DNA of 37,060 nucleotides from a virus. The notes beneath the pieces were generated by a model. It did no database searches. It was not told the origin of the DNA and saw only the letters and a program-made list of their open reading frames with translations. How positions within the stretch are numbered: the first letter of the stretch is position 1; each line of letters starts with the position of its first letter. This document shows positions 4,470 to 34,124 of the stretch, piece after piece. Both the position numbers and the translations under genes were made by a program. The DNA is taken from the IMG/VR virus record IMGVR_UViG_3300020448_000736, positions 1 to 37,060 of that record; one strand, 5' to 3'.

Positions 4470-5286
4470 TTAACACCTTCGCATATTTTCTAAAAGGGAA
4501 ATGTCCTTTTGGTGGAACCCATTCAGTACAAGTTTTACAATAGTTCTCATATTTAAATAATTGCCAGTTCATCATCTTATCTATGTTCTCTTGCGTTAAA
4601 TCAAAAGTTTTAGATAGTTCTTTATTATTAGCAAACTTTTTACTACAATGAACAATATGTCTTTTTTCAAAATCTATTACAGGCACCTGTGGAAAAGCTG
4701 CACACATTTTCCTATCTATCTCTTCGGCCTGTATAACATCTGTAAACTCCGGTGACCTACCATTAAATGCTTTCCACATTGTATTCTTATGATTTAATTT
4801 TTCTAATACTTCAGGATATTTGTCTTTGTATTTAAAGTAGTTTGGTGTTCTAACAACAACGTTAAAATTATTCTTATCATTTTCTGGTACATAATCAAAG
4901 TTACCTAATTTTTTTACTTTGTCCTCATACCAATCTAATATATTATGTTCAACATATAGTATATCCTCATCTTCTAATATATGTGGATATCTTTTACGTA
5001 TGAAAGAGTTAGACAATACTGATACAACAAAGTTATCATTCTTTTTAATCTCAGCGATAACTTCATCTAAATTTTTTATTAGACCTGGTTCACCGCCTAG
5101 TAAGTTAACTCTGACTTTATAGTTCTTTAGATACCCTAAAACCTTTCTTAAAAAATCCATATCAACGGTCAAGTTTCTCATTTCTAAAGTATAACTTGTA
5201 CAATAATGACAATCTTTATTGCACGACATTGATAGAAAGAAATCTATCGCTCTATAATTATCTTGTATTTCTTTAAAGGTTTTCAT
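4462..5286 (-). CDS. Radical SAM enzyme with C-terminal Cys-rich (SPASM-like) region
   Basis: The 274-residue protein has the radical SAM signature CNKDCHYC (C22, C26, C29), which binds a 4Fe-4S cluster and S-adenosylmethionine, followed by the SAM-contacting GGEP motif (64-67). More cysteines (MCAAFP near 194, HCSKKF near 214, and YCKTC near the C-terminus) suggest a second cluster of the SPASM or twitch kind. Such enzymes perform difficult radical chemistry on peptides, sugars or cofactors; the substrate here is unknown. It overlaps a 50-codon gene upstream by 4 nt and the carbamoyltransferase downstream by 8 nt. This is one of three CxxxCxxC radical SAM proteins in the window. Confidence 0.88.
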   Translation of the reverse strand: MKTFKEIQDNYRAIDFFLSMSCNKDCHYCTSYTLEMRNLTVDMDFLRKVLGYLKNYKVRVNLLGGEPGLIKNLDEVIAEIKKNDNFVVSVLSNSFIRKRYPHILEDEDILYVEHNILDWYEDKVKKLGNFDYVPENDKNNFNVVVRTPNYFKYKDKYPEVLEKLNHKNTMWKAFNGRSPEFTDVIQAEEIDRKMCAAFPQVPVIDFEKRHIVHCSKKFANNKELSKTFDLTQENIDKMMNWQLFKYENYCKTCTEWVPPKGHFPFRKYAKVLNA

Positions 5287-5435
5287 TTAAAATATTTTTC
5301 TAATTTTTCATAATACTTAATCAACGTATCTTTAGGTATAGGTGCGCCAAATAAATTTAATGTCTTACTTTTAACTACCTTTTTAATGTATAAAGGATTT
5401 TTCTTAAAGATTATAATGTTATTCTTATTTTTCAT
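5283..5435 (-). CDS. Small basic protein, 50 residues, unrecognised
   Basis: An ATG at 5435 opens a 50-codon frame ending in TGA at 5283-5285. It fills the only gap in the operon and overlaps both neighbours in the usual style: 11 nt with the gene upstream and 4 nt (ATGA) with the radical SAM gene downstream. The peptide is Lys-rich (about 14 Lys) and starts MKNKNNIIIFKKNPLY. There is no Cys and no recognised motif. The exact fit between neighbours is the main evidence that it is translated. It could act with the radical SAM enzyme or only couple translation; both are inference. Confidence 0.55.
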   Translation of the reverse strand: MKNKNNIIIFKKNPLYIKKVVKSKTLNLFGAPIPKDTLIKYYEKLEKYFK

Positions 5436-5727
5436 TTATCATTTTAAAAAAGAAAGTATTAAATGCTACTAATAATTTCTCTCTTGGTTTACCTGTTAAG
5501 TATGAAGATATATCAACCCATTCTGGCATTTGATAAGTCTTCTCGATTAAATAATGGTAGATATCTTCAACCTCTTTATCTACTAAACTTTCATCAAACA
5601 TATTGTCACCTAAAACTTTATGCATAATCTGACATAACTCAATAGGGCATTTATCAGTTATATCTGTCATATTACCTTGTTCGTCAATATGACTAAATTG
5701 AGTTAGTGATTTATTATGTTCTATCAT
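5425..5727 (-). CDS. Hypothetical protein, 100 residues
   Basis: This 100-residue acidic-to-neutral protein is predicted mostly helical, with a short beta-like start (FSHIDEQGNMTDITD). I do not recognise the family. It overlaps the aminotransferase gene upstream by 4 nt and the 50-codon gene downstream by 11 nt, so it is clearly part of the operon. The segment EVEDIYHYLIEKTYQMPEWVDI near residues 52-73 is the most distinctive stretch. No membrane segment or signal peptide is visible. A small accessory subunit for a neighbouring enzyme is possible, but nothing in the sequence proves it. Confidence 0.7.
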   Translation of the reverse strand: MIEHNKSLTQFSHIDEQGNMTDITDKCPIELCQIMHKVLGDNMFDESLVDKEVEDIYHYLIEKTYQMPEWVDISSYLTGKPREKLLVAFNTFFFKMINEK

Positions 5728-6764
5728 ATTAATAATAAGATAGTATTAATTACTTTATCTTGTTCCTCTCTTTTCATAAATGGATATAAAGGCAAAGTTA
5801 GTATTGAATCACAAACAATTCTTGTTATAAAATCATCATCTTTTCTATGTTCAATATTCTTATACATTATATTATCTGAAATAGGTTTATCATAATGTAT
5901 CTGACCTATTTTTTCTTTTACTCTATCTCTTACTTCTCTGTTTTGAAATCTAACTATATATTTGTGATAGTTATGATTTAGTCTATCAGGTGTCATTTGT
6001 ATGGTTACATAGTCTTTTAATTTGTCATCATAATATTTGGCAAGTTCTTGCCTTTTAGCAATATAGTATTTTAATTTTTTCAATCTAAAATTAATTACTT
6101 CAGCATTAAACAATAACATTTTAGAGTTATATCCTAATTGTTTATGTTCGCCGTGTTTTCGTAATCTCTTAAATATCTCTGTGTCACCATTTGTTAATAT
6201 AGCACCACCACCAGCGATACCAGCTACCACTTTATTTGCATTGAAACTAAATGTACTAATATCTCCTATCGTACCTGCCTTTACACCATTTAAACTTGAA
6301 CCTAATGATTGGCAAGCGTCTTCTATAAAGTGAATATTTTTATCTTTACAAAATTCTCTTATCTTACTAGTATCGGACATATTACCAAATAGATGAGGAT
6401 AAATTATTGCTTTTACTTTATCAGAGTACATTCTTTTTATACTATCTAAAGACATATGATAATCAGGCATACTAATATCACAAAATACAGGTGTTGCGCC
6501 GGCCATAGATATAACACTTGCAGTTGATATCCAAGAGAAGTTTGTAGTTAATACTTCATCGCCTGTACCTACACCAATCTTTAATAGTGAAAAAAATAAT
6601 GCGTCTGTTCCACTATTACAAACAACAACGTTTCTACCAAACATATCTGATAAGTTATCTTCAAGAAACTCTACATTAGATTCTTGATTTTTTCTCATAG
6701 ACTTATCAAATAATTCTTGATATTCTTTTGTAAAGATTTCGTATTCTTTATCCCAACCGTGCAT
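5724..6764 (-). CDS. DegT/DnrJ/EryC1/StrS-family PLP aminotransferase
   Basis: The 346-residue protein belongs to the sugar aminotransferase family that converts keto-sugar nucleotides to amino sugars with pyridoxal phosphate. Family marks are CNSGTDALFFSLL (cofactor phosphate loop, near 49-61), GDEVLTTNFSWISTA, the Asp/Gln pair in FIEDACQSLGS (near 145-155) and the Schiff-base Lys in STFSFNANKVVAGIAGGGAI (near 170-189). It is slightly shorter than the usual 370-400 residues. It shares one base with the Cys-rich gene upstream (TAATG) and overlaps the next gene by 4 nt. Together with the glycosyltransferases and carbamoyltransferase it suggests synthesis of an amino-sugar-containing glycan; a few members are dehydratases instead. 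Confidence 0.9.
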   Translation of the reverse strand: MHGWDKEYEIFTKEYQELFDKSMRKNQESNVEFLEDNLSDMFGRNVVVCNSGTDALFFSLLKIGVGTGDEVLTTNFSWISTASVISMAGATPVFCDISMPDYHMSLDSIKRMYSDKVKAIIYPHLFGNMSDTSKIREFCKDKNIHFIEDACQSLGSSLNGVKAGTIGDISTFSFNANKVVAGIAGGGAILTNGDTEIFKRLRKHGEHKQLGYNSKMLLFNAEVINFRLKKLKYYIAKRQELAKYYDDKLKDYVTIQMTPDRLNHNYHKYIVRFQNREVRDRVKEKIGQIHYDKPISDNIMYKNIEHRKDDDFITRIVCDSILTLPLYPFMKREEQDKVINTILLLI

Positions 6765-7129
6765 TATATTTTTCTCACTAAAGTTTTTTCACCTAGAGGC
6801 GTATCAGGTGTATAATAAGTTTCTTTTCTTACAACATCATCACTATCTTCTCTAACTTGACAAGTGTTAATACAAGCCCAAGGTAAGTCATCTATTTTTT
6901 GTAATCTTAAATTTTCTTCAAATTTTAACCATTCAGGTTGCATAATTATATCTTCAATACTTTCGTGTTCACTAACTTTACTTTGTTCTAAAAGTTTTTG
7001 AAATCTAGGGTCGTCCATAGTTCTATGAGAATCACAATAACAACAAGGTATTAAATGACCTCTATTAGTGTATGCTACGCTTTGTTCACCTGTAAAACAT
7101 TTAGCCCTTATAACAATTTTTTTAGTCAT
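6764..7129 (-). CDS. Stand-alone Cys-rich SPASM-like partner of the adjacent radical SAM protein
   Basis: The 121-residue protein has Cys at 11, 29, 30, 32, 86 and 90, with the pattern HLIPCCYCD followed much later by ACINTC. In radical SAM proteins with a SPASM domain, a similar Cys cluster after a Gly/Pro turn binds one or two auxiliary 4Fe-4S clusters. The upstream gene supplies the CxxxCxxC radical SAM barrel but no such tail. The two share one base (TAATG), so translation is coupled. I read the pair as a radical SAM/SPASM enzyme made as two polypeptides. It could also be a separate Fe-S or zinc-binding protein. Confidence 0.65.
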   Translation of the reverse strand: MTKKIVIRAKCFTGEQSVAYTNRGHLIPCCYCDSHRTMDDPRFQKLLEQSKVSEHESIEDIIMQPEWLKFEENLRLQKIDDLPWACINTCQVREDSDDVVRKETYYTPDTPLGEKTLVRKI

Positions 7130-7764
7130 TATTTTTTACTCATATTATATTTTTTACTAGGTCTTAATGGGTCGTTTTCAGAATTCCATCTTGACGATTG
7201 TAATAACATAAAGGTAACCCCTTCTTTTTTTGCTATCTCTTGAGCTTTTAATATGTTATCTTCATTATACTTAAATACTAGATATTGCCAAACAGGCAAT
7301 TGTTTTAAATACTTTTTAGATTCTATCATTAGATTAAAAAGTTTTTTACCATCTTGATTGATACGATAGATATGACTTTGTTCAGGTAAACCATCAATAC
7401 CAAATACCCATTTTGCTTCTGGATTTGCTTTAAACGCTTTCATATACCAATGATGAGGTTTTAAACTAGAGGCATTATGAATAATTGCCTCAATTTTATT
7501 TTTATAACAATACTCTAAAAATTGTATAAATTTTGGGTGATGAACCGGGTCAGACAATTGACCACAAAAGTTTATAGATTTAAAAAATTTAGTTAATTTA
7601 TAAAATTCCTCCATACTAATATCATAACCAGGCACTTTTTTACCTTTAATTCCATAATGCCTTTGTCTCTGACAATTAGGGCACTCTAAAGGGCAACGGT
7701 GACTAATATCAATATTTAATCTACGTCTTTTAAAAAAAGAGACTGCTGAGTAATTAGTTTTCAT
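7129..7764 (-). CDS. Radical SAM domain protein (split from its Cys-rich tail)
   Basis: The 211-residue protein carries CPLECPNC (C24, C28, C31), the radical SAM CxxxCxxC cluster motif, after a start strand NIDISHR. It is short for the family and ends after KKYNMSKK, with no auxiliary-cluster cysteines. The segment FCGQLSDPVHHPKF (near 71-84) occupies the place of the usual GGEP motif. The next gene, which shares one base with the stop codon, supplies a Cys-rich tail of the kind normally fused to such barrels. A run of six A just before the stop (AAA AAA TAA TG) could in principle allow a -1 slip giving a fusion, but coupled reinitiation is simpler. Substrate unknown. Confidence 0.82.
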   Translation of the reverse strand: MKTNYSAVSFFKRRRLNIDISHRCPLECPNCQRQRHYGIKGKKVPGYDISMEEFYKLTKFFKSINFCGQLSDPVHHPKFIQFLEYCYKNKIEAIIHNASSLKPHHWYMKAFKANPEAKWVFGIDGLPEQSHIYRINQDGKKLFNLMIESKKYLKQLPVWQYLVFKYNEDNILKAQEIAKKEGVTFMLLQSSRWNSENDPLRPSKKYNMSKK

Positions 7765-8639
7765 TTTACTTTACCTATCAAGTCAATTAATATCTTTGCA
7801 TTTTCTTTATACATTTCTTTTGTAGGGACAGGTCTTTTCATATAAACAGGTCCGCCATCTTTTATATTTTTATCTCTTAAATATTCTATATTTTTACCTA
7901 ACCATTTACATTCTTGTATAAGTCTTGGTGCTGGGTCATAATAGTTTTTTGTGTAAACGTAAGTGTTAAACAGACCTAGTAAATTATGAACAGGCGCAAA
8001 TATATTATTGTAGTCCATTATAATATAATCCTCGTCATATGTCAATATTCCGTGAGACTTAAAGCAGTTCGGACACTCTTTTATCCATCTATCAATCTCT
8101 TTATAATATACTTTATTTGTGCCTAAAAATAGATACTCAAATTGTACATCATTTTTTATTGGTTTATACTCTTCAAAATTAATCATTTTTTCATATTGAG
8201 CACCAACACCATTTGGATAAACATCATAATCGCATAAATCATAAACTTGTTTAGGTTTAAAATATTCTAATGCCAAAGGATATTCTTTGACGTGATTTTC
8301 AGAGTAAATTGCTATTAGTTTATTGTTAAATAATAAATGACCTGTCATTAATTGGTCAGTTGTGTAATAATCTTTATCTTTATATAATAACGTTAACATA
8401 CTTCTACCTAATATAAAAGTTATGTCATCTGATTCAGGTGTATAAAAGTCAAATATAATATTTGAACAAGTTTTATACTTTTCTGTTATTGCGTCTATAT
8501 AATGTTTTTTTGAAAAGTTATAATGTGTAATTATTACTACTTGAGCTTTAATGCCAATAGAGTTTAAATAACAACAATGTTCATAACTATAACAAAGTAA
8601 ACCATCGCCAGGTTTACTGGTCACCACTATATTAATCAT
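7761..8639 (-). CDS. GT-B-like glycosyltransferase (probable)
   Basis: This 292-residue protein looks like a GT-B glycosyltransferase. The N-terminal Rossmann-like half starts with MINIVVTSKPGDGLL and has an EHCCYLNSIGIKAQVV segment. The C-terminal half has YYDPAPRLIQECKWLGKNI (near 236-254), which resembles the E-containing donor-binding helix of GT4-type enzymes. The family resemblance is at motif level only, and the DxD of GT-A enzymes is absent. It lies between the nitroreductase-like gene (1 nt gap) and the radical SAM barrel gene (4 nt overlap). The role would be transfer of a sugar in the glycan assembled by this operon; donor and acceptor are unknown. Confidence 0.55.
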   Translation of the reverse strand: MINIVVTSKPGDGLLCYSYEHCCYLNSIGIKAQVVIITHYNFSKKHYIDAITEKYKTCSNIIFDFYTPESDDITFILGRSMLTLLYKDKDYYTTDQLMTGHLLFNNKLIAIYSENHVKEYPLALEYFKPKQVYDLCDYDVYPNGVGAQYEKMINFEEYKPIKNDVQFEYLFLGTNKVYYKEIDRWIKECPNCFKSHGILTYDEDYIIMDYNNIFAPVHNLLGLFNTYVYTKNYYDPAPRLIQECKWLGKNIEYLRDKNIKDGGPVYMKRPVPTKEMYKENAKILIDLIGKVK

Positions 8640-8640
8640 A

Positions 8641-9276
8641 CTATATCCAATTAATTATTTCTTCTATCTCCGGTTTATATTCTAAATCTGTTGGTGATTT
8701 GTGTCTATCATCAACGTCTTTTACTCCAAAAGTATAACCTAAACTCATACAGAATACAGGATAATCACCTTTTAAAAATGGTAAAATTCCTTCGTAATCT
8801 TTTTTATCTCTTTCAAAATCAGGAAAGCATAGTAAATAACTAACTGATAATTTATTTTCTAATGCTAAACCAGTTAATATACTTGCAAACATTCCTATTT
8901 CAAGAGAGTTAGGTATCTTAGCTTTTTTATATTGAGGGGTGCAACAAGTATATTCGTGTCCATATTTCATAGCCATTTTAACTTTTAAATTAGGGTTAGT
9001 CACCTCTCTAAAAGTAAACATAAAAAAATAAGGTGCGAATATATTATAGTTATTTGCTCCACCTTTTTTACCTTTTGATATATTCCAAAATTGTTTTTTA
9101 TATTCTAATTGTTCAGGTCCTAAAACGTGAACACGAAAAGGTAATAGATTTTGTTTTGACGGTGATAATTCAAAAGTTTTATTAACTAAACTTTTAATTA
9201 AATCTTTATCTGGTATGTTGGCTTCATCATATTGTCGGACTTGCCATCTTGTTTTATATATTTCCTCAATAGTCAT
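8641..9276 (-). CDS. Nitroreductase-family flavoprotein-like
   Basis: The protein (about 211 residues) has the plan of the nitroreductase family, FMN-dependent NAD(P)H oxidoreductases: RWQVRQYDEANIP near the start (FMN phosphate region), SPSKQNLLPFRVHVL (the APSxxNxQPW-like FMN segment) and a C-terminal half with LEIGMFASILTGLALEN and MSLGYTFGVK. An ATG two codons upstream, at 9282, lies inside the late promoter on this strand, so 9276 is the better start. It heads the 13-gene leftward operon. Substrate is not known; some relatives act on flavins or tailor natural products. Confidence 0.75.
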   Translation of the reverse strand: MTIEEIYKTRWQVRQYDEANIPDKDLIKSLVNKTFELSPSKQNLLPFRVHVLGPEQLEYKKQFWNISKGKKGGANNYNIFAPYFFMFTFREVTNPNLKVKMAMKYGHEYTCCTPQYKKAKIPNSLEIGMFASILTGLALENKLSVSYLLCFPDFERDKKDYEGILPFLKGDYPVFCMSLGYTFGVKDVDDRHKSPTDLEYKPEIEEIINWI

Positions 9277-9280
9277 ATAC

Positions 9281-9296
9281 ATATTTATATAAATAT
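9281..9296. promoter_or_regulatory. Divergent palindromic late-promoter pair
   Basis: A perfect 16-bp palindrome, ATATTTATATAAATAT, contains TATAAATA on both strands (plus 9288-9295; minus 9289-9282), overlapping by 2 bp. On each side exactly 5 nt separate TATAAATA from an ATG (9301 rightward, 9276 leftward). With T4-type late promoters the start of transcription falls about 5-6 nt after this motif, so both messages would start at or near the AUG. It would drive the 13-gene leftward operon and the rightward oxygenase trio. Confidence 0.75.
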
Positions 9297-9300
9297 CCGT

Positions 9301-10092
9301 ATGGTTATAAATGATGTAAAGAAGTTATTTGATAATACTGACCACGAACAAAAAGAATTAGGTTGGTACGAATTTGATTTAGCTGAAGTTGGTTTACCAT
9401 CAGCCGAAGAAATTTTATCAGGTGTAGAAAAGATAAAAGATAAAGTTGGTCTTCAAGGTTGGAGAACCAAAAATTTTACGAGTGATAGATATAAAGGTTT
9501 TGGTATTACACACAATCCTACATTTTTTGATAAAGATGAGAATATCTATCATCAAGTTTGGGGGTCAAACTTATGTGACCAATATTTTGGTAAAAAAGAT
9601 GGCACAGGCGACCACACTCAAATAAAAGACACATATTACGACACATTTGGATTTAGAAAAATTGATAATGTCATAAGTGATAATTTAAGTTCTTTACTAA
9701 ACAAATTTAATTTTCATATTAGTAGAAGTAGAGTGGCATACTTATATGGTTATGGTCAAGAACCTAATAATGAGGGTTGGCACGTAGATGAACCATCTTG
9801 TCAGTTATTGAGAGTTAATATACCCATACAAACAGGCAATGAATATGTGATACAATGGGATAATAAGACTTATCATTTAGAAGTTGGTAAAGCATATATT
9901 TGGAACACTAGAAAACCACACAGACCAGCATATATTAAAAAGGTTGAGACTAAAGAACCTAGAATTAATGTTGTTTTAGGATTAACACCTTGGTTAAACT
10001 ATGATGAAAAAAATGATAAATATAGTAAGAATAAATATTTTGGCAAACCTATAAAGGAAATAGTTGAGGAAAAATTATGGCTAAAAGAGTAA
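9301..10092 (+). CDS. 2-oxoglutarate/Fe(II)-dependent oxygenase-like protein
   Basis: From the ATG at 9301 the protein has 263 residues. It shows the facial triad of Fe(II)/2OG oxygenases on a cupin fold: HVD (H161, D163) in GWHVDEPS, a distal H207 in KPHRPAYI, and R221 in PRINVVLG for the 2-oxoglutarate carboxylate. The strand pattern resembles the aspartyl/asparaginyl beta-hydroxylase group. A longer frame to 9232 exists, but its first 23 codons cross the nitroreductase start and the late promoter, so 9301 is preferred. It has no Shine-Dalgarno and sits 5 nt from TATAAATA. It probably hydroxylates a sugar, lipid, amino acid or protein; which one is unknown. Confidence 0.78.
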   Translation: MVINDVKKLFDNTDHEQKELGWYEFDLAEVGLPSAEEILSGVEKIKDKVGLQGWRTKNFTSDRYKGFGITHNPTFFDKDENIYHQVWGSNLCDQYFGKKDGTGDHTQIKDTYYDTFGFRKIDNVISDNLSSLLNKFNFHISRSRVAYLYGYGQEPNNEGWHVDEPSCQLLRVNIPIQTGNEYVIQWDNKTYHLEVGKAYIWNTRKPHRPAYIKKVETKEPRINVVLGLTPWLNYDEKNDKYSKNKYFGKPIKEIVEEKLWLKE

Positions 10093-10373
10093 GATTAATA
10101 CAACAAAGACCTAATACGTCTGTTGACTGGCATAATGCGGCTGATGAGTTTAAATCACTCAAAGAAAGTTATGTGTCTGCTGGTAAATTAGACGACCAAG
10201 GCGGTGTTGTATCTGGAAGTGATTTAATAAAAACTTGGACTTTAGTTTTCCCTAATGAGGAAAATTACAATGAGTTTTTAGCTGAATCTGTGAGATTAAC
10301 TTATTATAATGATATGCAACTCTATAACGAAAAAAACGGTATTTCAGACAGCATAGACATTCAAGACGTTTAA
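10077..10373 (+). CDS. Hypothetical protein, 98 residues
   Basis: This 98-residue protein overlaps the oxygenase gene by 16 nt and has a good ribosome site (GAGG, about 8 nt upstream of the ATG). It begins with a basic stretch (MAKRVRLIQQRPNTSVDW) and contains TWTLVFPNEENYNEFL near residues 54-70. It looks like a small globular alpha-beta protein with no membrane segment. I do not recognise a family. It is followed one base after its stop by the next rightward gene, so the three form one transcription unit. Confidence 0.75.
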   Translation: MAKRVRLIQQRPNTSVDWHNAADEFKSLKESYVSAGKLDDQGGVVSGSDLIKTWTLVFPNEENYNEFLAESVRLTYYNDMQLYNEKNGISDSIDIQDV

Positions 10374-10374
10374 A

Positions 10375-10920
10375 ATGTTACCTGACAATATTGGTGAGTA
10401 TCAGGTGTTTGACAAGTTTAATGGTCAAAAGTTATTACCTGAATTAAGTTTATTATTAAATGAGTTTTCTGATACAAACGACAAACTTCACAAAAATTAC
10501 AAAGATATAAATTTCAATGACTTTGAAAACTATACTATAATAACTCATAAAAATAGTATAGTTTCTTTTTCTTCTATCTTACAAAGAGATATATGGAAGA
10601 AAAATACCGTACGTATATTCAATAGATTCTGGAGAAACAAAAAATTTAAATGGGTAAATCCTACTTTTGGTATATTATCTAAATTAACTTACAATCATCA
10701 AATCAAATATGCAAAAGATAATGGTTTTGATTTTGTGTTTTTATCTACTGAAAAAACACCTAAACATTTTACAAGATGGTTAGAACAGGCAAATGAATAT
10801 GATGGTGGTTGGATTTATTGTTTAGATAAAAAACGTGTTTGTAGTGGTAGTCCTGACAAATGCGTTCAATGGGTTATCTATAAAAAAATTAGTGATACTA
10901 ACGAGACTTTTCCTCTATAA
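10375..10920 (+). CDS. GNAT-like acetyltransferase (tentative)
   Basis: The 181-residue protein has NPTFGILSKLTYNHQIKYAK (near 95-114) followed by GFDFVFLSTEKTP (117-129), which resembles the acetyl-CoA loop-helix and the following beta strand of GNAT acetyltransferases. The N-terminal third (EYQVFDKFNGQKLLPEL) is not conserved in a way I recognise. The gene starts one base after the previous stop and its end overlaps the convergent desaturase gene by 23 nt, with no obvious terminator between. The GNAT reading is a fold-level guess; it could equally be another small transferase. Confidence 0.45.
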   Translation: MLPDNIGEYQVFDKFNGQKLLPELSLLLNEFSDTNDKLHKNYKDINFNDFENYTIITHKNSIVSFSSILQRDIWKKNTVRIFNRFWRNKKFKWVNPTFGILSKLTYNHQIKYAKDNGFDFVFLSTEKTPKHFTRWLEQANEYDGGWIYCLDKKRVCSGSPDKCVQWVIYKKISDTNETFPL

Positions 10921-11656
10921 ACGGTAAAAAGATAATACTAGGGTCAAACTCTTTTTTTGTTCTTGCAAAACTATATTTTCTAGTATTAACGTGGTGATTA
11001 TTATGCAATGCTTGACCCCAAGTAATATAACTTAAAAAAGGAATATTCATAGCATTATCTTTTGATTCCGTATTTTTATAACCAATAGTACCTAAATGAC
11101 AAACACTATTTACAAGTGCCTCTTGATGATATGAAAAAGCCGCTGGTATTGCCCAAAACCATAACATTAAATTAAAATCAATTAGACTCAATATAATAAA
11201 AGTAGACCACACAATATAAGTATAGTTTCTATTTAACCATAAATGAAAATTATCGTTTCTTAAATCTTTTACTATTTTTAAGTTTATACGACTTAATCTT
11301 TTTTTATGTATCCACCCAATATACGAATGAAAAAATCCGTGTTTAGGACTATGTGGGTCTTTATCTGTATCAGCGTTGCTGTGGTGCATACCTCTATGCA
11401 CGGCTGCCCACCATATCGGACTACCTTGTACACATAGACAAGATAAAAATAATAATGGTTTACGTAAATATTTTTTTAATTGTATTGCTCTATGACTTAC
11501 AACTCTATGTAATATAACTGCTGAACCTAAACCACAAAATAATACCCAACCAATAAACAAATATAACCAATTAGGTGATGTAAATAATATGCCTATAAGT
11601 GCTAGTAATTGCACAGGCCAAAATACAAACCATAAATTGATTTTACTTTTACTCAT
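10898..11656 (-). CDS. Fatty-acid (acyl-CoA / acyl-lipid delta-9-type) desaturase
   Basis: The 252-residue protein has the His boxes of membrane di-iron desaturases: HRVVSH (50-55), HRGMHH (87-92) and HNNHH (218-222), with a further H187 in SVCHLG. Hydrophobic segments near 10-45, 66-84 and 147-175 are the membrane spans. These enzymes put a double bond into an acyl chain, usually with ferredoxin or cytochrome b5 as electron donor. The length is typical of short bacterial delta-9 types. It shares one base with the radical SAM gene upstream and ends the second leftward operon. In a phage it would change host membrane fluidity or modify an acyl chain in a tailored product. Confidence 0.9.
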   Translation of the reverse strand: MSKSKINLWFVFWPVQLLALIGILFTSPNWLYLFIGWVLFCGLGSAVILHRVVSHRAIQLKKYLRKPLLFLSCLCVQGSPIWWAAVHRGMHHSNADTDKDPHSPKHGFFHSYIGWIHKKRLSRINLKIVKDLRNDNFHLWLNRNYTYIVWSTFIILSLIDFNLMLWFWAIPAAFSYHQEALVNSVCHLGTIGYKNTESKDNAMNIPFLSYITWGQALHNNHHVNTRKYSFARTKKEFDPSIIFLPFIEEKSR

Positions 11657-12495
11657 TAATAACCACCTTCATTTTCTTTTATGTGTTCTAAAAATGGGGA
11701 TATTTTAAAATCTGGTGTTAAACGACCTCTAACTGAATTTGTGTTATCATCAAAGCCATCATCAACACCTTCCCAATTTGTTATGTTAATCCTATATTTA
11801 TTATACTTATATGAAAAACTATATTGATTGTCTTCTAGTATAGCGCCTTGATTAAATTTACTAGTGATTAATTTTTTTAATTCATCAAAATTATAATTTT
11901 CATCTTTATCTATCATATAACGACCAACTTGACCTACGTTTCTAAACTCAAAAGAAGTGCCTGCTTTATAGTCAAGTGTATTCATACTATCTTTAATTTT
12001 ATCTATTACCTCTTCATTCATACCTTTTATTATAATGGTACCAACTGATATTCTTAATCTTAATTTTAATGCATTAAAAAGTGTATTCATCTTTTTTCTA
12101 GCACATTTCATATTATCTGTTATCTTATAGACCTCATCATTGTCCCAACCTGTCATACTTAAATAAACCGTCTTTAGTCCGGCGTCTTTTAATTTTGTTA
12201 GATAATCAAGACTTGATGTTCTTAAACCATTTGTTGCTATTGTTGTTCTATGACCTAGACTTGTAGCAACTTCTATTAACTCTGGCAAGTCTTTATGTAA
12301 AGTAGGTTCGCCACCTATAAATCTAAACTCTGTTGGTTTTTTAACTCTTTGAAAAAAATCTATTAATAGTATTTTAGGTATATCAGGCAAATCTCTGTTT
12401 GGTAAATAACAATTTGCACATTCCATATTACATCTATGAACAATATCACAATAGACGTTTTTAAAAGGGTTATTTTCTGGTTCGTATTTTATCAT
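11656..12495 (-). CDS. Radical SAM enzyme
   Basis: The 279-residue protein has CNMECANC (C22, C26, C29) for the SAM-bound 4Fe-4S cluster, then FIGGEPTL (59-66) and ATNGLR near 100. The layout is that of the MoaA/SPASM-type TIM barrel, but there is no Cys cluster in the C-terminal third, so no auxiliary cluster is expected. It overlaps the 2OG oxygenase gene upstream by 4 nt and shares one base with the desaturase gene downstream. Oxygenase, radical SAM and desaturase side by side suggest oxidative or radical tailoring of one product. The substrate is unknown. Confidence 0.85.
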   Translation of the reverse strand: MIKYEPENNPFKNVYCDIVHRCNMECANCYLPNRDLPDIPKILLIDFFQRVKKPTEFRFIGGEPTLHKDLPELIEVATSLGHRTTIATNGLRTSSLDYLTKLKDAGLKTVYLSMTGWDNDEVYKITDNMKCARKKMNTLFNALKLRLRISVGTIIIKGMNEEVIDKIKDSMNTLDYKAGTSFEFRNVGQVGRYMIDKDENYNFDELKKLITSKFNQGAILEDNQYSFSYKYNKYRINITNWEGVDDGFDDNTNSVRGRLTPDFKISPFLEHIKENEGGY

Positions 12496-13052
12496 ACAAG
12501 TTGATTACTTCTATACAGATTATTAATTCTACTAAAACTATCATACTCATCTTTAAAACTAATACTTAAAATGACTCGGTCGGACTCGGAAAGATTCTCT
12601 ACTCCGTGAGGCAAACTAGTATTTAAACACGCAGGTTGATTGAGAATAAATCTTTGTGTTTCAACTACATCATTATATTTTTTTGCTTGTACAGATATTT
12701 GTTTATCGCCGATTTTAATATTAGGATTATTATAATCTCCTTTTGACTCAAAAAATATTGTATGTTGTTTATCAGTAGTATCAATTGGTATATTAATCGC
12801 CACATTTCTTTTATCACTATGAGCAGATACATTTCCGCCAGCTATAGTTTTAAAAAATTTAATGTTATCTATTATATCTGGTTTTTTAAATTGATTTACA
12901 ATATAATCTACTTCTTTTAAGTCAACATATTTTGTATGTAAACTTGTTAGTTTAGTAGGACCGTAAAATGCCCATTCATTTTCATTCTTTAAAAAACAAT
13001 GATACAATTCTTCTCTATTAAATTTTAATTCTGGTATATAAAAATAGTTCAT
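12492..13052 (-). CDS. 2OG-Fe(II) oxygenase-like protein
   Basis: This 186-residue protein shows a compact cupin oxygenase plan with HSD (H78, D80) in SAHSDKRNVAINIP, a distal H149 in SLPHGVEN and R159 in SDRVILSISF. These are the iron and 2-oxoglutarate contacts of the family. It is short, close to the core fold, as in several phage and cyanobacterial members. It overlaps both neighbours by 4 nt. Together with the TauD-like protein upstream it gives two oxygenase-type proteins in one operon. The target is unknown; hydroxylation of an acyl or amino acid group is plausible. Confidence 0.72.
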   Translation of the reverse strand: MNYFYIPELKFNREELYHCFLKNENEWAFYGPTKLTSLHTKYVDLKEVDYIVNQFKKPDIIDNIKFFKTIAGGNVSAHSDKRNVAINIPIDTTDKQHTIFFESKGDYNNPNIKIGDKQISVQAKKYNDVVETQRFILNQPACLNTSLPHGVENLSESDRVILSISFKDEYDSFSRINNLYRSNQLV

Positions 13053-13846
13053 TTTAATTTTGAATAATCAAATGCTATTCTATGTAGCACTCTATCTTCC
13101 ATTTTTTCAAAGTAATGTCTTTTGTGAATACTTAACCATTGTTCACTTAATACAATATCACCATCTTGCCAATGATGGTCATATCTAAACTCATCTTTTA
13201 GTATATGATTTTTTAAAGTGTTAAATGTTTCATCATCTAAACCACCAAATACTTGTAAGAAAGGGAAGTATAATCCTGTTTTCTTAGCGTCATTAGTATG
13301 TACTAAATTAAACGGTCTATCTGTAGCGTGATGTTCTTTAAAAAATTTACTAGGACTATATGAGTCAACTTTATAACCCAATGTTATTTTAGTATTCTTA
13401 ATTTTTTCTTTAATATCTTCAGATAAATTGTTATAAGATTCTATATTATTAATCCAACTTGTAATACTACCTTTGGTGCCTTCAACACCATATAACCATA
13501 TCAATGGTTTTCTTTCATAATTACTGGCCTGGTTGGCGTGCCAATCTAAAGCTGAAGTATGACCAAATAATCCTTCTTCACCTCTATCATTTTTTTGACC
13601 GGTAACTCTTAACACACCATCTATTAGTGATATATCTTTTGCTCTATCAGTATTTGTGGACTGATATTCTCCAATAAAATTACAGAATCGTAATTGTTGT
13701 TCTGGTGATAAATTTTGATTTCTAATTACTACGACCATCTGACTTAAAACTAGGTCTGCTATTTTATGAGCAGTAGTTTCGTCAGCTTCAGATATATCTA
13801 TATCTTTAATTTCAACAGCCCAATCATTTAAGTATTCTATATTCAT
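13049..13846 (-). CDS. TauD/TfdA-like protein with HxN instead of HxD
   Basis: The 265-residue protein is TauD/TfdA-like from start to end: VVVIRNQNLSPEQQLRFCNFIGE (38-60), ALDWHANQAS (99-108), then SEQWLSIHKRHYF (234-246) with distal H241, and LHRIAFDYS with R256 for the cosubstrate carboxylate. TauD has WHTD at the first metal site; here the third position is Asn (N105, codon AAC), so one iron ligand is changed from Asp to Asn. Activity may be altered or lost. It is first in the four-gene leftward operon, with GGAG about 6 nt before the ATG and a late-promoter-like element upstream. Confidence 0.85.
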   Translation of the reverse strand: MNIEYLNDWAVEIKDIDISEADETTAHKIADLVLSQMVVVIRNQNLSPEQQLRFCNFIGEYQSTNTDRAKDISLIDGVLRVTGQKNDRGEEGLFGHTSALDWHANQASNYERKPLIWLYGVEGTKGSITSWINNIESYNNLSEDIKEKIKNTKITLGYKVDSYSPSKFFKEHHATDRPFNLVHTNDAKKTGLYFPFLQVFGGLDDETFNTLKNHILKDEFRYDHHWQDGDIVLSEQWLSIHKRHYFEKMEDRVLHRIAFDYSKLK

Positions 13847-13870
13847 TATATTTTCTCCAATTCATACTAG

Positions 13871-13878
13871 TATTTATC
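13871..13878 (-). promoter_or_regulatory. Late-promoter-like element (GATAAATA) for leftward TauD operon
   Basis: On the minus strand the sequence reads GATAAATACTAGT, one change from TATAAATA, 24 nt before the ATG at 13846, with GGAG between. It lies back to back with the rightward TATAAATA at 13880. By position it would drive the four-gene leftward operon. Confidence 0.5.
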
Positions 13879-13879
13879 A

Positions 13880-13887
13880 TATAAATA
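13880..13887 (+). promoter_or_regulatory. T4-type late promoter (TATAAATA) of structural block
   Basis: Exact TATAAATA, 23 nt before the ATG at 13911, with AAGGAG in between. This is the expected place for a gp55-type late sigma -10 element. Confidence 0.75.
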
Positions 13888-13910
13888 GTATAGTACAAGG
13901 AGAAATTGAT

Positions 13911-14111
13911 ATGATTACAATAGATGGTAAAGAGTATGATGAAACTAAATTTAGTCCTGATTTACAGAATTGTCTAGTGGTAAGACAAGAAATTCAGGTA
14001 AATGCTACAAGACATAAACTTGAGCTAGAGAAAATTGACGTTTTGACAAAATATTATAATAACAAGATAGTAGAATTATTAAAAAAAGAGACAGAATCAG
14101 AGAAGAAATAG
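13911..14111 (+). CDS. Small phage protein, DUF6447-like
   Basis: The 66-residue protein starts MITIDGKEYDETKFSPDLQN and continues as a long charged helix. This start pattern (ITIDGKxYD plus helix) is typical of a small protein family common in marine T4-like phages, which I know as DUF6447; its role is not established. The ATG follows a strong AAGGAG ribosome site and a TATAAATA late promoter, so it heads the rightward structural block. Its stop is immediately followed by the next ATG. A coiled-coil or scaffolding role is only a guess. Confidence 0.75.
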   Translation: MITIDGKEYDETKFSPDLQNCLVVRQEIQVNATRHKLELEKIDVLTKYYNNKIVELLKKETESEKK

Positions 14112-14444
14112 ATGGCTGCTATAGCTAATTTACAGATAGACCAAGGTGCTACATTTACCTCGGATGTAACCGTCAAAGACGCAAACGGAAATGCCTTTGA
14201 CTTAACAGGTTATACTGCTAGGGCTAAATTAGCAAAAGGCTATCAATCAACAAAAACAAGACAAGATATTACAACATCAATCGCTTCAGCAACTGAAGGG
14301 AAAGTTACCTTATCATTAACAGCAGACCAGACAACAGCCCTAGAAGACACTAGATACGTATATGATTTAGAGATAGTCAGCGGCGCTGTGGTCACCAGAG
14401 TTATTGAAGGTATTATCTCTGTTCGTCCTCAAGTAACCACATAA
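14112..14444 (+). CDS. Beta-rich structural protein (Ig-like / BppU-N-like)
   Basis: The 110-residue protein has an alternating beta pattern: FTSDVTVKDANGNAFDLTGYTARAKL, then KVTLSLTADQTTALEDTRYVYDLEI and VTRVIEGIISV. The LTGYTARAKL segment is common in phage tail or baseplate modules that resemble the N-terminal domain of BppU-type proteins and in Ig-like domains. It begins right after the stop of the small upstream gene. It is probably a virion protein that joins or decorates a tail fibre. Family level only. Confidence 0.65.
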   Translation: MAAIANLQIDQGATFTSDVTVKDANGNAFDLTGYTARAKLAKGYQSTKTRQDITTSIASATEGKVTLSLTADQTTALEDTRYVYDLEIVSGAVVTRVIEGIISVRPQVTT

Positions 14445-14461
14445 TTCTAACTACTTTTTGT

Positions 14462-28982: not shown

Positions 28983-31226
28983 ATGGCTTTTGAATTAAAC
29001 GAATTTAAACTTAAATGGCAAGGTCCTTGGAGAGATAGAACAGCTTACTCCAAGAATGATATTGTTATGTGGAAAGGAAAATCTTATAGATGTATAAGAG
29101 ATTGTCCTGTAGCATATACATTATCAGGTGATTTCCTAGTTAACACATCTAACTATTCAATGGACCCAATGAGATTAGTCCAAAAGTCTTTTAGACCTGA
29201 CAATCCAAAATACTGGCAATTGTTTTTACGTTCAACAGATGATATTACAGAATGGGAATTTTGGAGACAATATGAACCAGGCGAAATGTGTTCAGTTGGT
29301 AGAAAAATTTATCAATGTATAAAAAGAACAAGACGTTATAATACTTGGGTTGAAGAACATAGAGGTGAGCCAAGTGAATATTGGATAAAAATTTACGAAT
29401 CACCATTTGCATATCCAGACAGAAATAGAACCGTATCGTACACTAACAGGACTCCTTTAGGTTGGAAGTACAATATGGGTAGAAATGCTAATGAAATGTG
29501 TACTCACTATTCATTAGGTGTTATAATGTCAAACGGAGACGCAATGCGTTGGGGTGGTAATGATGATACCGGAATGATGGGGAATGGTGACGGAACAAGT
29601 GGCTCAGGTAGAACAGGTAGACCACATATGACAGGTTTTACAAATATTGACTGGAGAACATCAACAGATAATAAAGATGTTGCAAAAGGCCACGAATTTA
29701 CAGGTCATATGGTAACACCAGACGCTGAAGCTCCGAAATGTATTCAATGGTGTACAGGTCATAACTTTAGTGTTTGGCTAATGAATAACGGTGAAGTTTA
29801 TACTTCAGGTTACAATGGTCATTATCAATTAGGTTATAACGAGGGTAGTTCAACAAACTCAACAAATAGAAATTATACAAACAGAGTATCAGCAAGTGAT
29901 ACGGTTGATTGGTTAGGAGATACAATACGTTCTTTTAACGATACAAAAATGGTAAAAGTTGGTACAACTTCTCAAGGACACCAATCAAGTGGTAAAGCAA
30001 TTTGGTCATTAGGTGAAGATGGTTCAGTTTGGATTTGGGGTTATAACAACCAAGGTCAAGCAGGTTTTGGTAATCCTAGTATCAATAACTCAACAGATAC
30101 TAACGGTGGTTCGCCTTACTCATTTTCATTTTATTCAGGAAATATAAGAAGACCAATTAAAATTCCTCAACAATTCTTTAACAACAAAAGAATTATTGAT
30201 ATGTGGGGCTCAGGTAACGAAGAAATGTATTGGCACGCCCTTGATGAAGACGGTTACTTATGGGCTTGGGGACAAGACGTTTACGGTTGCCTAGGAGTTG
30301 GTATGAATTCTCATACTTCTCAAGGTACTTATTACTACACAATTCCAAGAAGAGTTGAAATTAATTGGAATCAATATGGTGGTATGAAACTAATTCAACA
30401 TTGGTCTTATGACGGACAAGGTCACGCAGGTACTTGGGTACTAGATGGCGAAGGCTATATGTGGTACACAGGTTACTTAACAAACGGACAAGTTCCAGGT
30501 ATGTATGGTATTGGTGATAACAATACTGCTTATCAAGCTGAGTTTAGAAGAGGTGATTTTCACTTAAACGGTGATGTTGATGAATTCTGGTGTGGTGGTG
30601 ATGAAAACAAATGGATGTACATTAGACAAAAATCAACAGGTATGTTATGGGTAAATGATGGTAACTACGGAACATATGGTACTAGAGGTTCAAGAGTACA
30701 ACAAGGTTACTGGTATCAATCAGGCGGAATTCACGGAATGTTTTCTCATTTAAGAGGACCAAAATACGTAAGATATATTCAAGGTCAAAACTCTAATAGA
30801 GGTGATGGTTCATACATTTATGACTCACCTGGTATATTAGATGAAGATGGTGGACTCTGGTATGGTAATAATTACGGTTATAGATACTTTCCTTCATTAT
30901 CAAATGATAATCCTGATAATAATGATGACGGTTATCAAATGGATATGTCTCAAGGTTTTGAATCTAATGCTGAAAACAGACATAGAAAAAGAAGAGCTGT
31001 ACAACCTTGTAATAGTAAAATTGTGGACTTTGGTTCATACGGTTATCCAACGGTGATGAATTATTACTTTAGAGACCAAAATGGTAAATTATATACATCA
31101 GGTTATCAACCAAATAACCAAACATATATGTTTTCAATGATGCCCTACCGTTATCAGTCAGCAACTGGTTCATCTTGGGGAAGTAATAACTATCGTGCTC
31201 ATATGGCTTCATCGCCAGGTGATTAA
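28983..31226 (+). CDS. Tail fibre with CBM-like module and RCC1 beta-propeller
   Basis: The third RCC1 fibre has 747 residues. A CBM-like module opens it (WQGPWRDRTAYSKNDIVMWK, near 13-32), and a second related segment lies near 85-120 (YEPGEMCSVGRKIYQCIKRT). RCC1-type repeats begin near 185, 270, 347, 424, 491, 553, 623 and 701 (SVWIWGYNNQGQAGFGNPS, YLWAWGQDVYGCLGVGMN). The last ones are weak. There is no cupredoxin-like domain, which explains most of the shorter length. Three fibres with the same ends but different middles suggest duplication and shuffling. Probably a receptor-binding fibre. Confidence 0.83.
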   Translation: MAFELNEFKLKWQGPWRDRTAYSKNDIVMWKGKSYRCIRDCPVAYTLSGDFLVNTSNYSMDPMRLVQKSFRPDNPKYWQLFLRSTDDITEWEFWRQYEPGEMCSVGRKIYQCIKRTRRYNTWVEEHRGEPSEYWIKIYESPFAYPDRNRTVSYTNRTPLGWKYNMGRNANEMCTHYSLGVIMSNGDAMRWGGNDDTGMMGNGDGTSGSGRTGRPHMTGFTNIDWRTSTDNKDVAKGHEFTGHMVTPDAEAPKCIQWCTGHNFSVWLMNNGEVYTSGYNGHYQLGYNEGSSTNSTNRNYTNRVSASDTVDWLGDTIRSFNDTKMVKVGTTSQGHQSSGKAIWSLGEDGSVWIWGYNNQGQAGFGNPSINNSTDTNGGSPYSFSFYSGNIRRPIKIPQQFFNNKRIIDMWGSGNEEMYWHALDEDGYLWAWGQDVYGCLGVGMNSHTSQGTYYYTIPRRVEINWNQYGGMKLIQHWSYDGQGHAGTWVLDGEGYMWYTGYLTNGQVPGMYGIGDNNTAYQAEFRRGDFHLNGDVDEFWCGGDENKWMYIRQKSTGMLWVNDGNYGTYGTRGSRVQQGYWYQSGGIHGMFSHLRGPKYVRYIQGQNSNRGDGSYIYDSPGILDEDGGLWYGNNYGYRYFPSLSNDNPDNNDDGYQMDMSQGFESNAENRHRKRRAVQPCNSKIVDFGSYGYPTVMNYYFRDQNGKLYTSGYQPNNQTYMFSMMPYRYQSATGSSWGSNNYRAHMASSPGD
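29530..31130 (+). repeat. RCC1-type repeat array, seven to eight units (divergent)
   Basis: Most of the 747-residue fibre gene is made of units near codons 185, 270, 347, 424, 491, 553, 623 and 701. Spacing (60-85 codons) is larger and less regular than in the other two fibres; the last three units are weak. Confidence 0.7.
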
Positions 31227-31246
31227 TAAATAGTTTTTGACTATTT
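31225..31246 (+). promoter_or_regulatory. Late-promoter variant (AATAAATA) overlapping an AT-rich hairpin
   Basis: AATAAATA (31225-31232) stands before the unknown gene of the bilin operon (ATG 31263, GGAG upstream). The same bases can pair: AAATAG (31228-31233) with CTATTT (31241-31246), loop TTTTTGA, followed by T-rich sequence. It may be a weak promoter, a weak terminator of the fibre block, or both. Confidence 0.3.
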
Positions 31247-31262
31247 TTATTATGGAGTTAAA

Positions 31263-32009
31263 ATGTACAAAACGAAACAAAACTATTTAAAATTTCAATC
31301 TCACGATATATTCGGCGATAAATTTCAATCATATCCAAAAGAAATGCAGGCAACATACTGGTATCAAGTATGGTGGATTATCAATCATTTTGAAACAATG
31401 ATGAATGGTGTTGATTTTGAACATCACAATCAAAGAAATATATTAAGAGACAAGTGGGAAAAATTATGGCCGTTTCAAATTAGAAACTATACACTTGGTG
31501 GTGCACCTGCTATGCCTAAAATGCCTCACACAACAGACTTAATTCATAAGTTAGGTGAAGATTATAATTTTAATACACCGGCAATGTTGCTTAATAGAAC
31601 ATTTTGGAAAAAAGATTGGTTTTCTTATCAAGTTATATATGGTACAACCGTTGATTTGTTTAAACAAGTATTAAAAGTTAGTGATGAAGATATAGAAGCA
31701 TTTTTAAAACCATTAGCAGATTATAAACCAAAAGATTATATACTACCAAGAATACGTGTTGTTAGTGGATTTGTATCATTAGCTGATTACTTTATGAAAA
31801 CTAAAGATATGTGGATACAAACAAAAGAGTTTGGTGACTGGAGAGAAAAAGATAATTTAAGAAAAATAGAAGAATTTAAAAAGTATGGCGAAGTTTCAGA
31901 TGAAATACCTGAGGACTATCCTTTAGATAAAACAAAAATATTAGATACACGAAAATTAAATAATAGATGGAAAAGAGAAAAACCTTTTTTAGAAAATGAG
32001 TATGATTAA
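31263..32009 (+). CDS. Unrecognised protein, first gene of the bilin operon
   Basis: The 248-residue protein is rich in aromatic residues (YWYQVWWIINHFETMMNGV near 33-51; WEKLWPFQIRNYTLGGAPAM near 65-84). It has no signal peptide, no clear membrane span and no motif that I recognise. Predicted structure is mainly helical with a charged C-terminal tail. Its stop shares one base with the heme oxygenase start (TAATG), so the two are translationally coupled. The ribosome site is GGAG. It may be a partner of heme or bilin metabolism, or a virion protein that happens to precede those genes; the sequence does not decide. Confidence 0.75.
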   Translation: MYKTKQNYLKFQSHDIFGDKFQSYPKEMQATYWYQVWWIINHFETMMNGVDFEHHNQRNILRDKWEKLWPFQIRNYTLGGAPAMPKMPHTTDLIHKLGEDYNFNTPAMLLNRTFWKKDWFSYQVIYGTTVDLFKQVLKVSDEDIEAFLKPLADYKPKDYILPRIRVVSGFVSLADYFMKTKDMWIQTKEFGDWREKDNLRKIEEFKKYGEVSDEIPEDYPLDKTKILDTRKLNNRWKREKPFLENEYD

Positions 32010-32611
32010 TGGAGCAAGAGAAAAAATATAGAATAAAAGAGTTAACTTGGGAATATCATAAAAATGCTGAAAGACAGCAGTTTGTGAAATTACTTTTATC
32101 AGGTACTATTGATGAAAAACTATATGCAACATACTTATATAATCAATTAAAGTGTTATTCTAAATTAGAACAATATTGTTTAGAAAGTTCTTTGTTTTTA
32201 GATACTTTAAATCTACCAAGAGCTGAACATATATTTTATGATTACAGAGCGTTATGGGGAGATATAGGTAGTCCGCCAATAGAAACTGAAAGTACAAAAG
32301 CGTATGTTGAACATTTAGATACTATCAGAGGTGAAAATGAAAAACTATATGCTCACGTATATGTTAGACATTTAGGTGATTTATCAGGTGGTCAGATGAT
32401 TAAAAGAAAAACTCCTGGACCTAATAGATACTATATATTTAAACACGGTGAGGCAAAAGAATATAAAAGAATTGTTAAAGAAAGAGTTGAAAGTTATTTA
32501 AATTTATATGAGGTAAACGTGTTGCCAGAAGCAATCTTTTGCTTTGAAAGTGCAACAAAACTATTTAAGGAAATGTATGATTTGGGAAAGACTAATCAAG
32601 TGGCAAAATGA
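32009..32611 (+). CDS. hemO: Heme oxygenase (biliverdin-forming)
   Basis: The 200-residue protein has the full pattern of heme oxygenases: the proximal heme ligand H17 in TWEYHKNAER, a helical body (FVKLLLSGTIDEKLYATYLY), and the distal-helix Gly motif HLGDLSGGQM (121-130), which lets O2 bind heme. It opens heme to biliverdin, CO and iron using electrons from ferredoxin. Length is typical of bacterial and phage forms. It is coupled to the unknown gene upstream and overlaps the bilin reductase by 35 nt, so biliverdin would pass straight to the next enzyme. Host ferredoxin would be the electron source. The gene symbol follows the name used for such phage genes; ho1 is also used. Confidence 0.93.
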   Translation: MEQEKKYRIKELTWEYHKNAERQQFVKLLLSGTIDEKLYATYLYNQLKCYSKLEQYCLESSLFLDTLNLPRAEHIFYDYRALWGDIGSPPIETESTKAYVEHLDTIRGENEKLYAHVYVRHLGDLSGGQMIKRKTPGPNRYYIFKHGEAKEYKRIVKERVESYLNLYEVNVLPEAIFCFESATKLFKEMYDLGKTNQVAK

Positions 32612-33281
32612 GACTATTGAAGTCTTAAATAAAAATCTGGTTGAATACAAAGAACCGGGTATGGAAAGATTCAACAATGAAAAATTAGGTTGGGTCAATA
32701 GAACCTGGAATAACAGATATATTAGAAGAGCACATTTAGATGTTGTTGATGTAAGGGAATCAAAAGGACTATGGATGGCACATCTATGTCTTTTTCCTAT
32801 GTTAACAAATGGTGGACCGATTTATGGTTTTGATATTATAGCAGGTGAAAAGAAAGTCACCGGTGCCTTTCACGATTTTAGTCCTCTATTACAAAAAGAC
32901 CACCCATTAACAAAATGGTTTATAGAAGAAAATAAGTGGTTTAAACCGAGTAAAGAGAGAGAGTTACCAGATTGGGCGAAGGCTATCTTTTCGGGAGGTA
33001 TGATAGCCGCTGGTAATGTAAGAGAAGAAGATGAATTAAATAAAATTTGCACAATGGCAGTTTCTAATTTAAATAATTATATAGATAAAATTAGAAATCA
33101 CGAAGGCGAAGCAGATATAAAAGAAGTAATTAAAGCACAAAATTACTATTCTGAACATCAACAAAAGAATCCACACACGCCTAGAGTTATGCAATCTCTT
33201 GGTTTGCCTGAAGAGGATATTAAATTATTCTGTTCGGACAACCTATTTCCGTTTGTTTCAGAAAACCAACCCTACTTGTAA
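32577..33281 (+). CDS. pcyX: Ferredoxin-dependent bilin reductase, PcyA/PcyX type
   Basis: From the ATG at 32577 (AAGGA about 5 nt upstream) the protein has 234 residues; a longer frame to 32544 has no such site. It matches the HY2/PcyA/PebS family: AHLDVVDV (H53, D55), WMAHLCLFP (H69), PIYGFDIIAG (D86) and TGAFHDFSP. In Synechocystis PcyA the matching residues are H74, E76, H88 and D105, so the catalytic His/Asp pair is kept while E76 is Asp. E76 serves reduction of the 18-vinyl group, so the product may be phycoerythrobilin, as reported for the phage enzyme PcyX, not phycocyanobilin. The subfamily name is inferred from this residue and from the hemO context. Confidence 0.88.
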   Translation: MIWERLIKWQNETIEVLNKNLVEYKEPGMERFNNEKLGWVNRTWNNRYIRRAHLDVVDVRESKGLWMAHLCLFPMLTNGGPIYGFDIIAGEKKVTGAFHDFSPLLQKDHPLTKWFIEENKWFKPSKERELPDWAKAIFSGGMIAAGNVREEDELNKICTMAVSNLNNYIDKIRNHEGEADIKEVIKAQNYYSEHQQKNPHTPRVMQSLGLPEEDIKLFCSDNLFPFVSENQPYL

Positions 33282-33288
33282 TAACTAT

Positions 33289-33296
33289 TATAAATA
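33289..33296 (+). promoter_or_regulatory. T4-type late promoter (TATAAATA) of neck/terminase module
   Basis: Exact TATAAATA 21 nt before the gp13 ATG at 33318, with AAAAGGG ribosome site. Sets the neck and terminase genes apart from the bilin operon. Confidence 0.75.
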
Positions 33297-33317: not shown

Positions 33318-34124
33318 ATGGCAGAACCAGCTACAAGAGAAAATTTAAAACAATATGCTTTAAGAGCATTAGGTAAGCCTGTAATTGAGATTAACGTAGA
33401 TGATGACCAACTTGAAGATAGAATTGATGAGGCAATACAATACTTTGCTCAATACCATTATGATGGTGTTAAAAGAACATATTTAAAATATCAATACACA
33501 CAAGCAGATAAAGATAGAATGACAAGTGATTCAACTGAATCTGCTACAGCCGGTTCTGTAACCAATAGCTGGAAAGAGGGTCAAAATTTTCTTGCAATAC
33601 CAAATTCAATTATTTCTATAATCAATATATTTCCGTTTTCAAACAAAGGTAATTTAAATTTATTTGATGTTAGATACCAATTAAGATTAAATGACTTGTA
33701 CGATTTTTCTTCAACAAGTGTGATTAATTATGATGTTGTATTAAGACATTTAGACTTTTTAGACCATATTTTAGTAGGTGAAAAACCTATGAGATTTAAT
33801 CAACACGAAAATAAATTATATGTTGATATGGATTGGAAAAATGATTTAGCAGTAGGTGAATATTTGGTGATTGAATGTTATAGAAGATTAGACCCAGCAA
33901 CAAATACAGATGTTTTTAATGATATCTTCTTAAAGAGATACGTAACCGCTTTATTTAAAAAACAATGGGGTGCCAACTTATCAAAATTTGGTGGTGTTCA
34001 AATGATAGGTGGTGTAACCTTAAATGGCCAACAAATATTTCAAGAAGCTTGCGATAGCATAGAAAAATTAGAATTAGAAATAAGAAGTTCATATGAATTA
34101 AATCCAGCAATGTTTATAGGATAG
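33318..34124 (+). CDS. 13: T4 gp13-like neck (head completion) protein
   Basis: The 268-residue protein matches gp13 of T4-like phages from its start (ATRENLKQYALRALGKPVIE, then INVDDDQLEDRIDEAIQYFA). gp13 and gp14 form the neck that closes the filled head and receives the tail. It is a little shorter than T4 gp13 (about 309). TATAAATA at 33289 and AAAGGG upstream support the start. It is followed by gp14 after four bases, and the T4 order gp13-14-15-16-17 strongly supports the call. Confidence 0.9.
   Translation: MAEPATRENLKQYALRALGKPVIEINVDDDQLEDRIDEAIQYFAQYHYDGVKRTYLKYQYTQADKDRMTSDSTESATAGSVTNSWKEGQNFLAIPNSIISIINIFPFSNKGNLNLFDVRYQLRLNDLYDFSSTSVINYDVVLRHLDFLDHILVGEKPMRFNQHENKLYVDMDWKNDLAVGEYLVIECYRRLDPATNTDVFNDIFLKRYVTALFKKQWGANLSKFGGVQMIGGVTLNGQQIFQEACDSIEKLELEIRSSYELNPAMFIG

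Follow-up and report, generated by a model that had tools for sequence, protein, structure and literature searches.

A putative heme-oxygenase-like pseudoenzyme heads a predicted heme-to-phycoerythrobilin operon in a T4-like pelagiphage

What would a marine phage make from heme, and what part would be played by an additional gene placed at the head of its heme-degrading operon? These questions are raised by a 37,060-nucleotide stretch of viral DNA (IMG/VR record IMGVR_UViG_3300020448_000736, hereafter the window), in which a heme oxygenase gene and a bilin reductase gene are preceded by a gene, here called U, that an earlier note had left unrecognised. We found the three genes arranged as that note had described (Table 1). 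The stop codon of U and the start codon of hemO have one base in common in a TAATG junction at 32007, and the reductase begins with an ATG at 32577, which gives a 35-nt overlap with hemO. The order tail fibre-U-hemO-ferredoxin-dependent bilin reductase (FDBR)-gp13 was seen again in dozens of contigs, and dN/dS was well below 1 for each gene of the operon (about 0.16-0.44 for U, 0.04-0.14 for hemO, and 0.02-0.07 for pcyX). Because the block recurs so widely and each of its genes gives such a ratio, the locus is not a product of chance; U is under purifying selection that is weaker than that on hemO or pcyX.

Table 1. Features of the operon and its flanks (window positions)
Feature	Coordinates	Strand	Description
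tf: RCC1-repeat-like tail-fibre-region protein, 747 aa	28983..31226	+	constant neighbour upstream of U/X
late-promoter-like ATAAATA	31226..31232	+	31 nt 5' of U start codon; consensus match only
U	31263..32009	+	248 aa; putative pseudo-heme-oxygenase, HO-like fold
hemO	32009..32611	+	heme oxygenase, 200 aa; H17, GDLSGGQ
pcyX	32577..33281	+	ferredoxin-dependent bilin reductase, 234 aa; D55/H69/D86; predicted phycoerythrobilin synthase
late-promoter-like ATAAATA	33290..33296	+	ahead of gp13; consensus match only
T4 gp13-type neck protein	33318..34124	+	81% identity to pelagiphage Mosig

Since gp13, gp14, a tail-sheath stabiliser, and terminase subunits adjoin pcyX downstream, the phage is T4-like, as the earlier note had also concluded. 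Judged by the neck gene gp13, it belongs with the pelagimyophages: in addition to its resemblance to Mosig, the protein is 62% identical to that of HTVC008M and at most 48% identical to those of the cyanophages listed. A SAR11 host is therefore likely. Elsewhere in the window, positions 275-13846 of the minus strand hold a cluster of carbamoyltransferase, radical-SAM, DegT-type aminotransferase, nitroreductase-like, fatty-acid desaturase, and TauD-type dioxygenase genes, which resembles a region of Mosig that bears annotations for 'molybdenum cofactor biosynthesis' (MoaA-like) and carbamoyltransferase genes. The RCC1-repeat-like protein upstream of U matched nothing in 50,697 phage records and always adjoins U or its counterpart X (described below) in IMG/VR.

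We identify the product of the middle gene, from its sequence, as a heme oxygenase (HemO). It matches Pfam Heme_oxygenase (1.4e-19) as well as heme oxygenases in the PDB, and it has both the proximal histidine H17 and the distal-helix motif GDLSGGQ (G123-Q129), which is kept in 79 of 84 relatives. The reductase, in turn, is assigned to PcyX. It is a member of the FDBR family (Pfam Fe_bilin_red, 2.7e-16) and is identical to PcyX_EBK42635 (PDB 5owg) at 225 of 234 positions over its full length (96.2%). H53, D55, H69, and D86 are all kept; the residue equivalent to D55 is a glutamate in PcyA (PcyA Glu76), including the cyanophage PcyA proteins, which are only 23-30% identical to the window reductase. 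In a FastTree tree of the kind that the earlier note had proposed, built from 22 FDBRs with PebS, PebA, PebB, and HY2 left out, the reductase fell in the PcyX part, away from the cyanophage and Synechocystis PcyA proteins. According to PMC11480375, PcyX makes phycoerythrobilin, and Asp55 is its specific catalytic residue. Given the identity to 5owg and the presence of this PcyX-specific aspartate, phycoerythrobilin is the expected product. The 'pink or blue' bilin of the earlier note thus narrows, by homology, to the pink one.

In the proposed pathway, HemO would open host heme to give biliverdin IX-alpha, CO, and Fe(II). PcyX would then use four electrons supplied by ferredoxin to reduce the biliverdin to phycoerythrobilin. 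Such an electron donor is plausible, since both Mosig and a 109-kb U-bearing contig encode a [2Fe-2S] ferredoxin. As to expression, T4 late promoters have ATAAATA as their core. The window contains 15 such sites where 29 would be expected, and on the plus strand many of them lie 16-38 nt before an open reading frame, including those ahead of U and gp13; this rarity, along with the positions in front of genes, fits a T4-like late promoter that is avoided elsewhere. Because one copy stands before U and the next before gp13, U-hemO-pcyX looks like a late transcription unit of its own, as far as a consensus match, rather than a mapped promoter, can indicate. The three genes would then form a translationally coupled, late-expressed operon of a T4-like pelagiphage.

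The earlier note was right in naming hemO plus pcyX as known from uncultured oceanic phages, as this cassette has been described in uncultured marine viruses and in pelagiphage Mosig EXVC030M (Wegner et al. 2024, PMC11480375). The window locus is like that of Mosig in both enzymes, in gene order, in the overlap, and in the position before gp13, with identities of 84% for PcyX and 65% for HemO. The two differ upstream, where Mosig has 2OG-Fe(II) oxygenase genes in place of U. Mosig (L088) carries four of these and a ferrochelatase annotation just 5' of hemO (10599-14454), and the region ahead of hemO/gp13 seems to be a hot spot for genes of metabolism. In contigs L055, L063, and L066, another gene lies between hemO and pcyX. 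The ho1/pcyA/pebS sets of cyanophages are also phage-encoded heme-to-bilin enzymes; in contrast to cyanophages, the pelagiphage-like records yielded no psbA. The main text of PMC11480375 makes no mention of a pseudo-heme-oxygenase gene before hemO.

U is a family new to the searched libraries and phage records, and the hemO-pcyX pair that it precedes is already in the literature. No relatives of U were found in Pfam, NCBIfam, PHROG, PDB sequences, the 50,697 phage records, or one scan of GTDB genome contigs; relatives were found in about 36 IMG/VR contigs. hemO follows directly in all 34 distinct U genes from IMG/VR with downstream sequence. Members are 218-257 aa long and have many invariant aromatic residues, a single invariant histidine (H14), and no conserved cysteine. 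GDLSGGQ is absent from every member, and the proximal histidine is likewise missing: the equivalent position is Tyr8 in U and Leu8 in other members, and is not conserved. Tyr8 falls at the proximal-His site both in the structural register of the start (U1 = HO-1 residue 18) and in that of the profile. A further candidate, a 2OG-Fe(II) oxygenase, was suggested by the genes of this kind that fill the slot in Mosig; we rejected it since U is predicted to be all-helical and is without such a motif.

The tie between U and heme oxygenase runs through X, a gene that occupies the same slot in a sister lineage of 21 contigs (L229-L249) found by a tail-fibre alignment search. These loci read tail fibre-X-hemO-FDBR-gp13, usually with an AlaS-like ORF of about 408 aa before gp13, and all 16 distinct X genes directly precede hemO. 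The ORF reads as AlaS on inspection of its translation, so that the lineage is mostly like the hemO-pcyA/X-valaS cassette described in PMC11480375; the window phage is unlike it in having no AlaS in the window. A 279-aa X was also found in the U slot of contig L185, in the gp13 neighbourhood. It matched the pelagiphage heme oxygenase profile (42.9 bits, 9e-12), and, when 3660 ORFs were searched with the U profile, it scored highest of all proteins outside the U family (14.4 bits, E 0.003; the best reversed decoy reached 9.7). With hhalign, X matched pelagiphage heme oxygenase at 98.7% (2e-16); its proximal histidine is replaced by an invariant arginine and its GDLSGGQ by SEI..N (example coordinates of an X gene are L203:4995-5834). 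X alone had no heme oxygenase match in the PDB or Pfam, and its kinship rests on the pelagiphage profile, by which we identify it as a clear paralogue of pelagiphage heme oxygenase.

U and X, in turn, were matched by hhalign at 90-91% (E about 1e-6) over only about 70 residues; the best P among 222 other profiles or sequences compared with U was 0.006. The first single X sequence had given a weak link to U, which became clear once the X family had been assembled through the tail-fibre search. A direct comparison of U with the heme oxygenase profile was not significant (P about 0.09), and the sequence-profile tie of U to the heme-oxygenase-like superfamily therefore runs by way of U-X and X-heme oxygenase. 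AlphaFold2 modelled U and a family member 42% identical to it with moderate pLDDT (74 and 73). Foldseek of U gave no significant match in the PDB or BFVD; the top VIA-align entries for the two models were of the HO/TenA/HDO fold in 50 of 50 cases for U and 49 of 50 for the other member. The alignments had Z of 8.5-11.8 over about 160 residues, mostly at 3.2-3.9 Å, values to be read with the moderate pLDDT and with the tool's own caution that a Z of 11 for a helical protein may reflect a common arrangement.

Because profile, synteny, and predicted fold point the same way, we conclude that U is most likely a decayed paralogue of heme oxygenase, unable to perform heme oxygenase chemistry. It would have arisen by duplication of a heme oxygenase followed by decay, with loss of the proximal histidine and the GDLSGGQ distal helix. 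The gene described as unrecognised in the earlier note is indeed without a database family, but it has relatives and most likely a place in the heme-oxygenase-like superfamily. Plasmodium PfHO (PDB 8zld) offers a parallel in that it is an inactive, divergent heme oxygenase scaffold without the key active-site residues and illustrates that such a scaffold can persist for another role (PMC11634067), as proposed for U. PfHO appears in the structural match lists of U, with no close sequence relation shown; it is essential for apicoplast gene expression, whereas U and X stand in a bilin operon.

We weighed other readings of U. An active enzyme of the heme-oxygenase-like superfamily other than heme oxygenase (TenA-type, PqqC-type, or a heme-oxygenase-like diiron oxidase) would fit the structural searches, where TenA, UndA, PqqC, PolF, AetD, and HrmI are among the best matches, tied with heme oxygenases. 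We nevertheless consider it improbable, since no Glu/Asp/His ligand set for two irons is conserved in U, H14 being the only invariant histidine, and no conserved cysteine could serve as the TenA-C nucleophile, a residue that TenA-E types also do without. As a decayed paralogue, U most likely acts without heme oxygenase catalysis; it might, for instance, bind heme or bilin, or form a complex with HemO or PcyX. Two readings then compete, and one of them makes U a non-catalytic partner in the pathway. It draws on the strict adjacency to hemO, on translational coupling, and on distances in the X clade that follow heme oxygenase (r 0.92). The heme oxygenase scaffold has an affinity for tetrapyrroles. 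U is dispensable for the chemistry itself, given that U and X are missing at 61 hemO loci of other lineages that keep hemO-pcyX. In a more specific form, which we put forward tentatively as possible rather than probable, U and X would be fast-diverging dead paralogues that serve the pathway as a dedicated subunit: they would capture heme for HemO or accept bilin from PcyX, in place of a lyase or carrier, in hosts without phycobiliproteins. The other reading places U in the upstream tail-fibre/adhesin module, as an assembly factor or accessory virion protein that merely abuts the bilin genes. Across 20 contigs, U distances correlate with those of the tail fibre (r 0.89-0.93) versus 0.61 for heme oxygenase, 0.34 for FDBR, and 0.66 for gp13; moreover, wherever the upstream flank can be seen, U or X is accompanied by the tail fibre, and every tail-fibre locus has U or X, as opposed to those 61 heme oxygenase loci. 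Recombination within the conserved hemO could, however, be all that lies behind this co-variation. In the sister clade X follows heme oxygenase and not the tail fibre (r 0.51), X is itself a heme oxygenase paralogue, U/X overlaps or abuts hemO, and a late-promoter-like element parts it from the tail-fibre gene, all of which leads us to regard a tail role as rather unlikely.

As to the use of the bilin, phycobiliprotein, CpeT lyase, phytochrome PHY, and psbA were all absent from 8 related records, which are mostly fragments. This absence, for all but psbA, would suit a reading in which iron is the point of the operon: HemO would supply Fe(II) to phage Fe(II)/2OG oxygenases and to ribonucleotide reductase, with PcyX doing no more than disposing of biliverdin. 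In Mosig, which has the same hemO-pcyX, 2OG-Fe(II) oxygenase genes are numerous, with four located in the 4 kb preceding hemO, and rubrerythrin, ferrochelatase, and an NrdAB-type reductase are encoded as well. Genes of the TauD, radical-SAM, and fatty-acid-desaturase types occur in the window itself, and PMC11480375 takes up iron supply too. Against this, PF13640 oxygenases are few in U-bearing contigs, and PcyX has a whole active site and the strongest constraint in the operon, which points to a value of the bilin product in its own right. An iron-centred purpose is thus conceivable, short of likely. Our preferred account as a whole, a late, coupled operon that converts heme to phycoerythrobilin and is headed by a heme-oxygenase-like pseudoenzyme, seems to us reasonably likely.

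The locus bears on the puzzle of phages of non-photosynthetic SAR11 bacteria making a pink antenna pigment, a co-occurrence that published work has called 'enigmatic'. Should U, the conserved putative pseudo-heme-oxygenase that leads the operon, prove to bind heme or bilin, it would point to how the pigment is captured and used; if U instead serves the tail module, it would be an enzyme scaffold recycled for another task.
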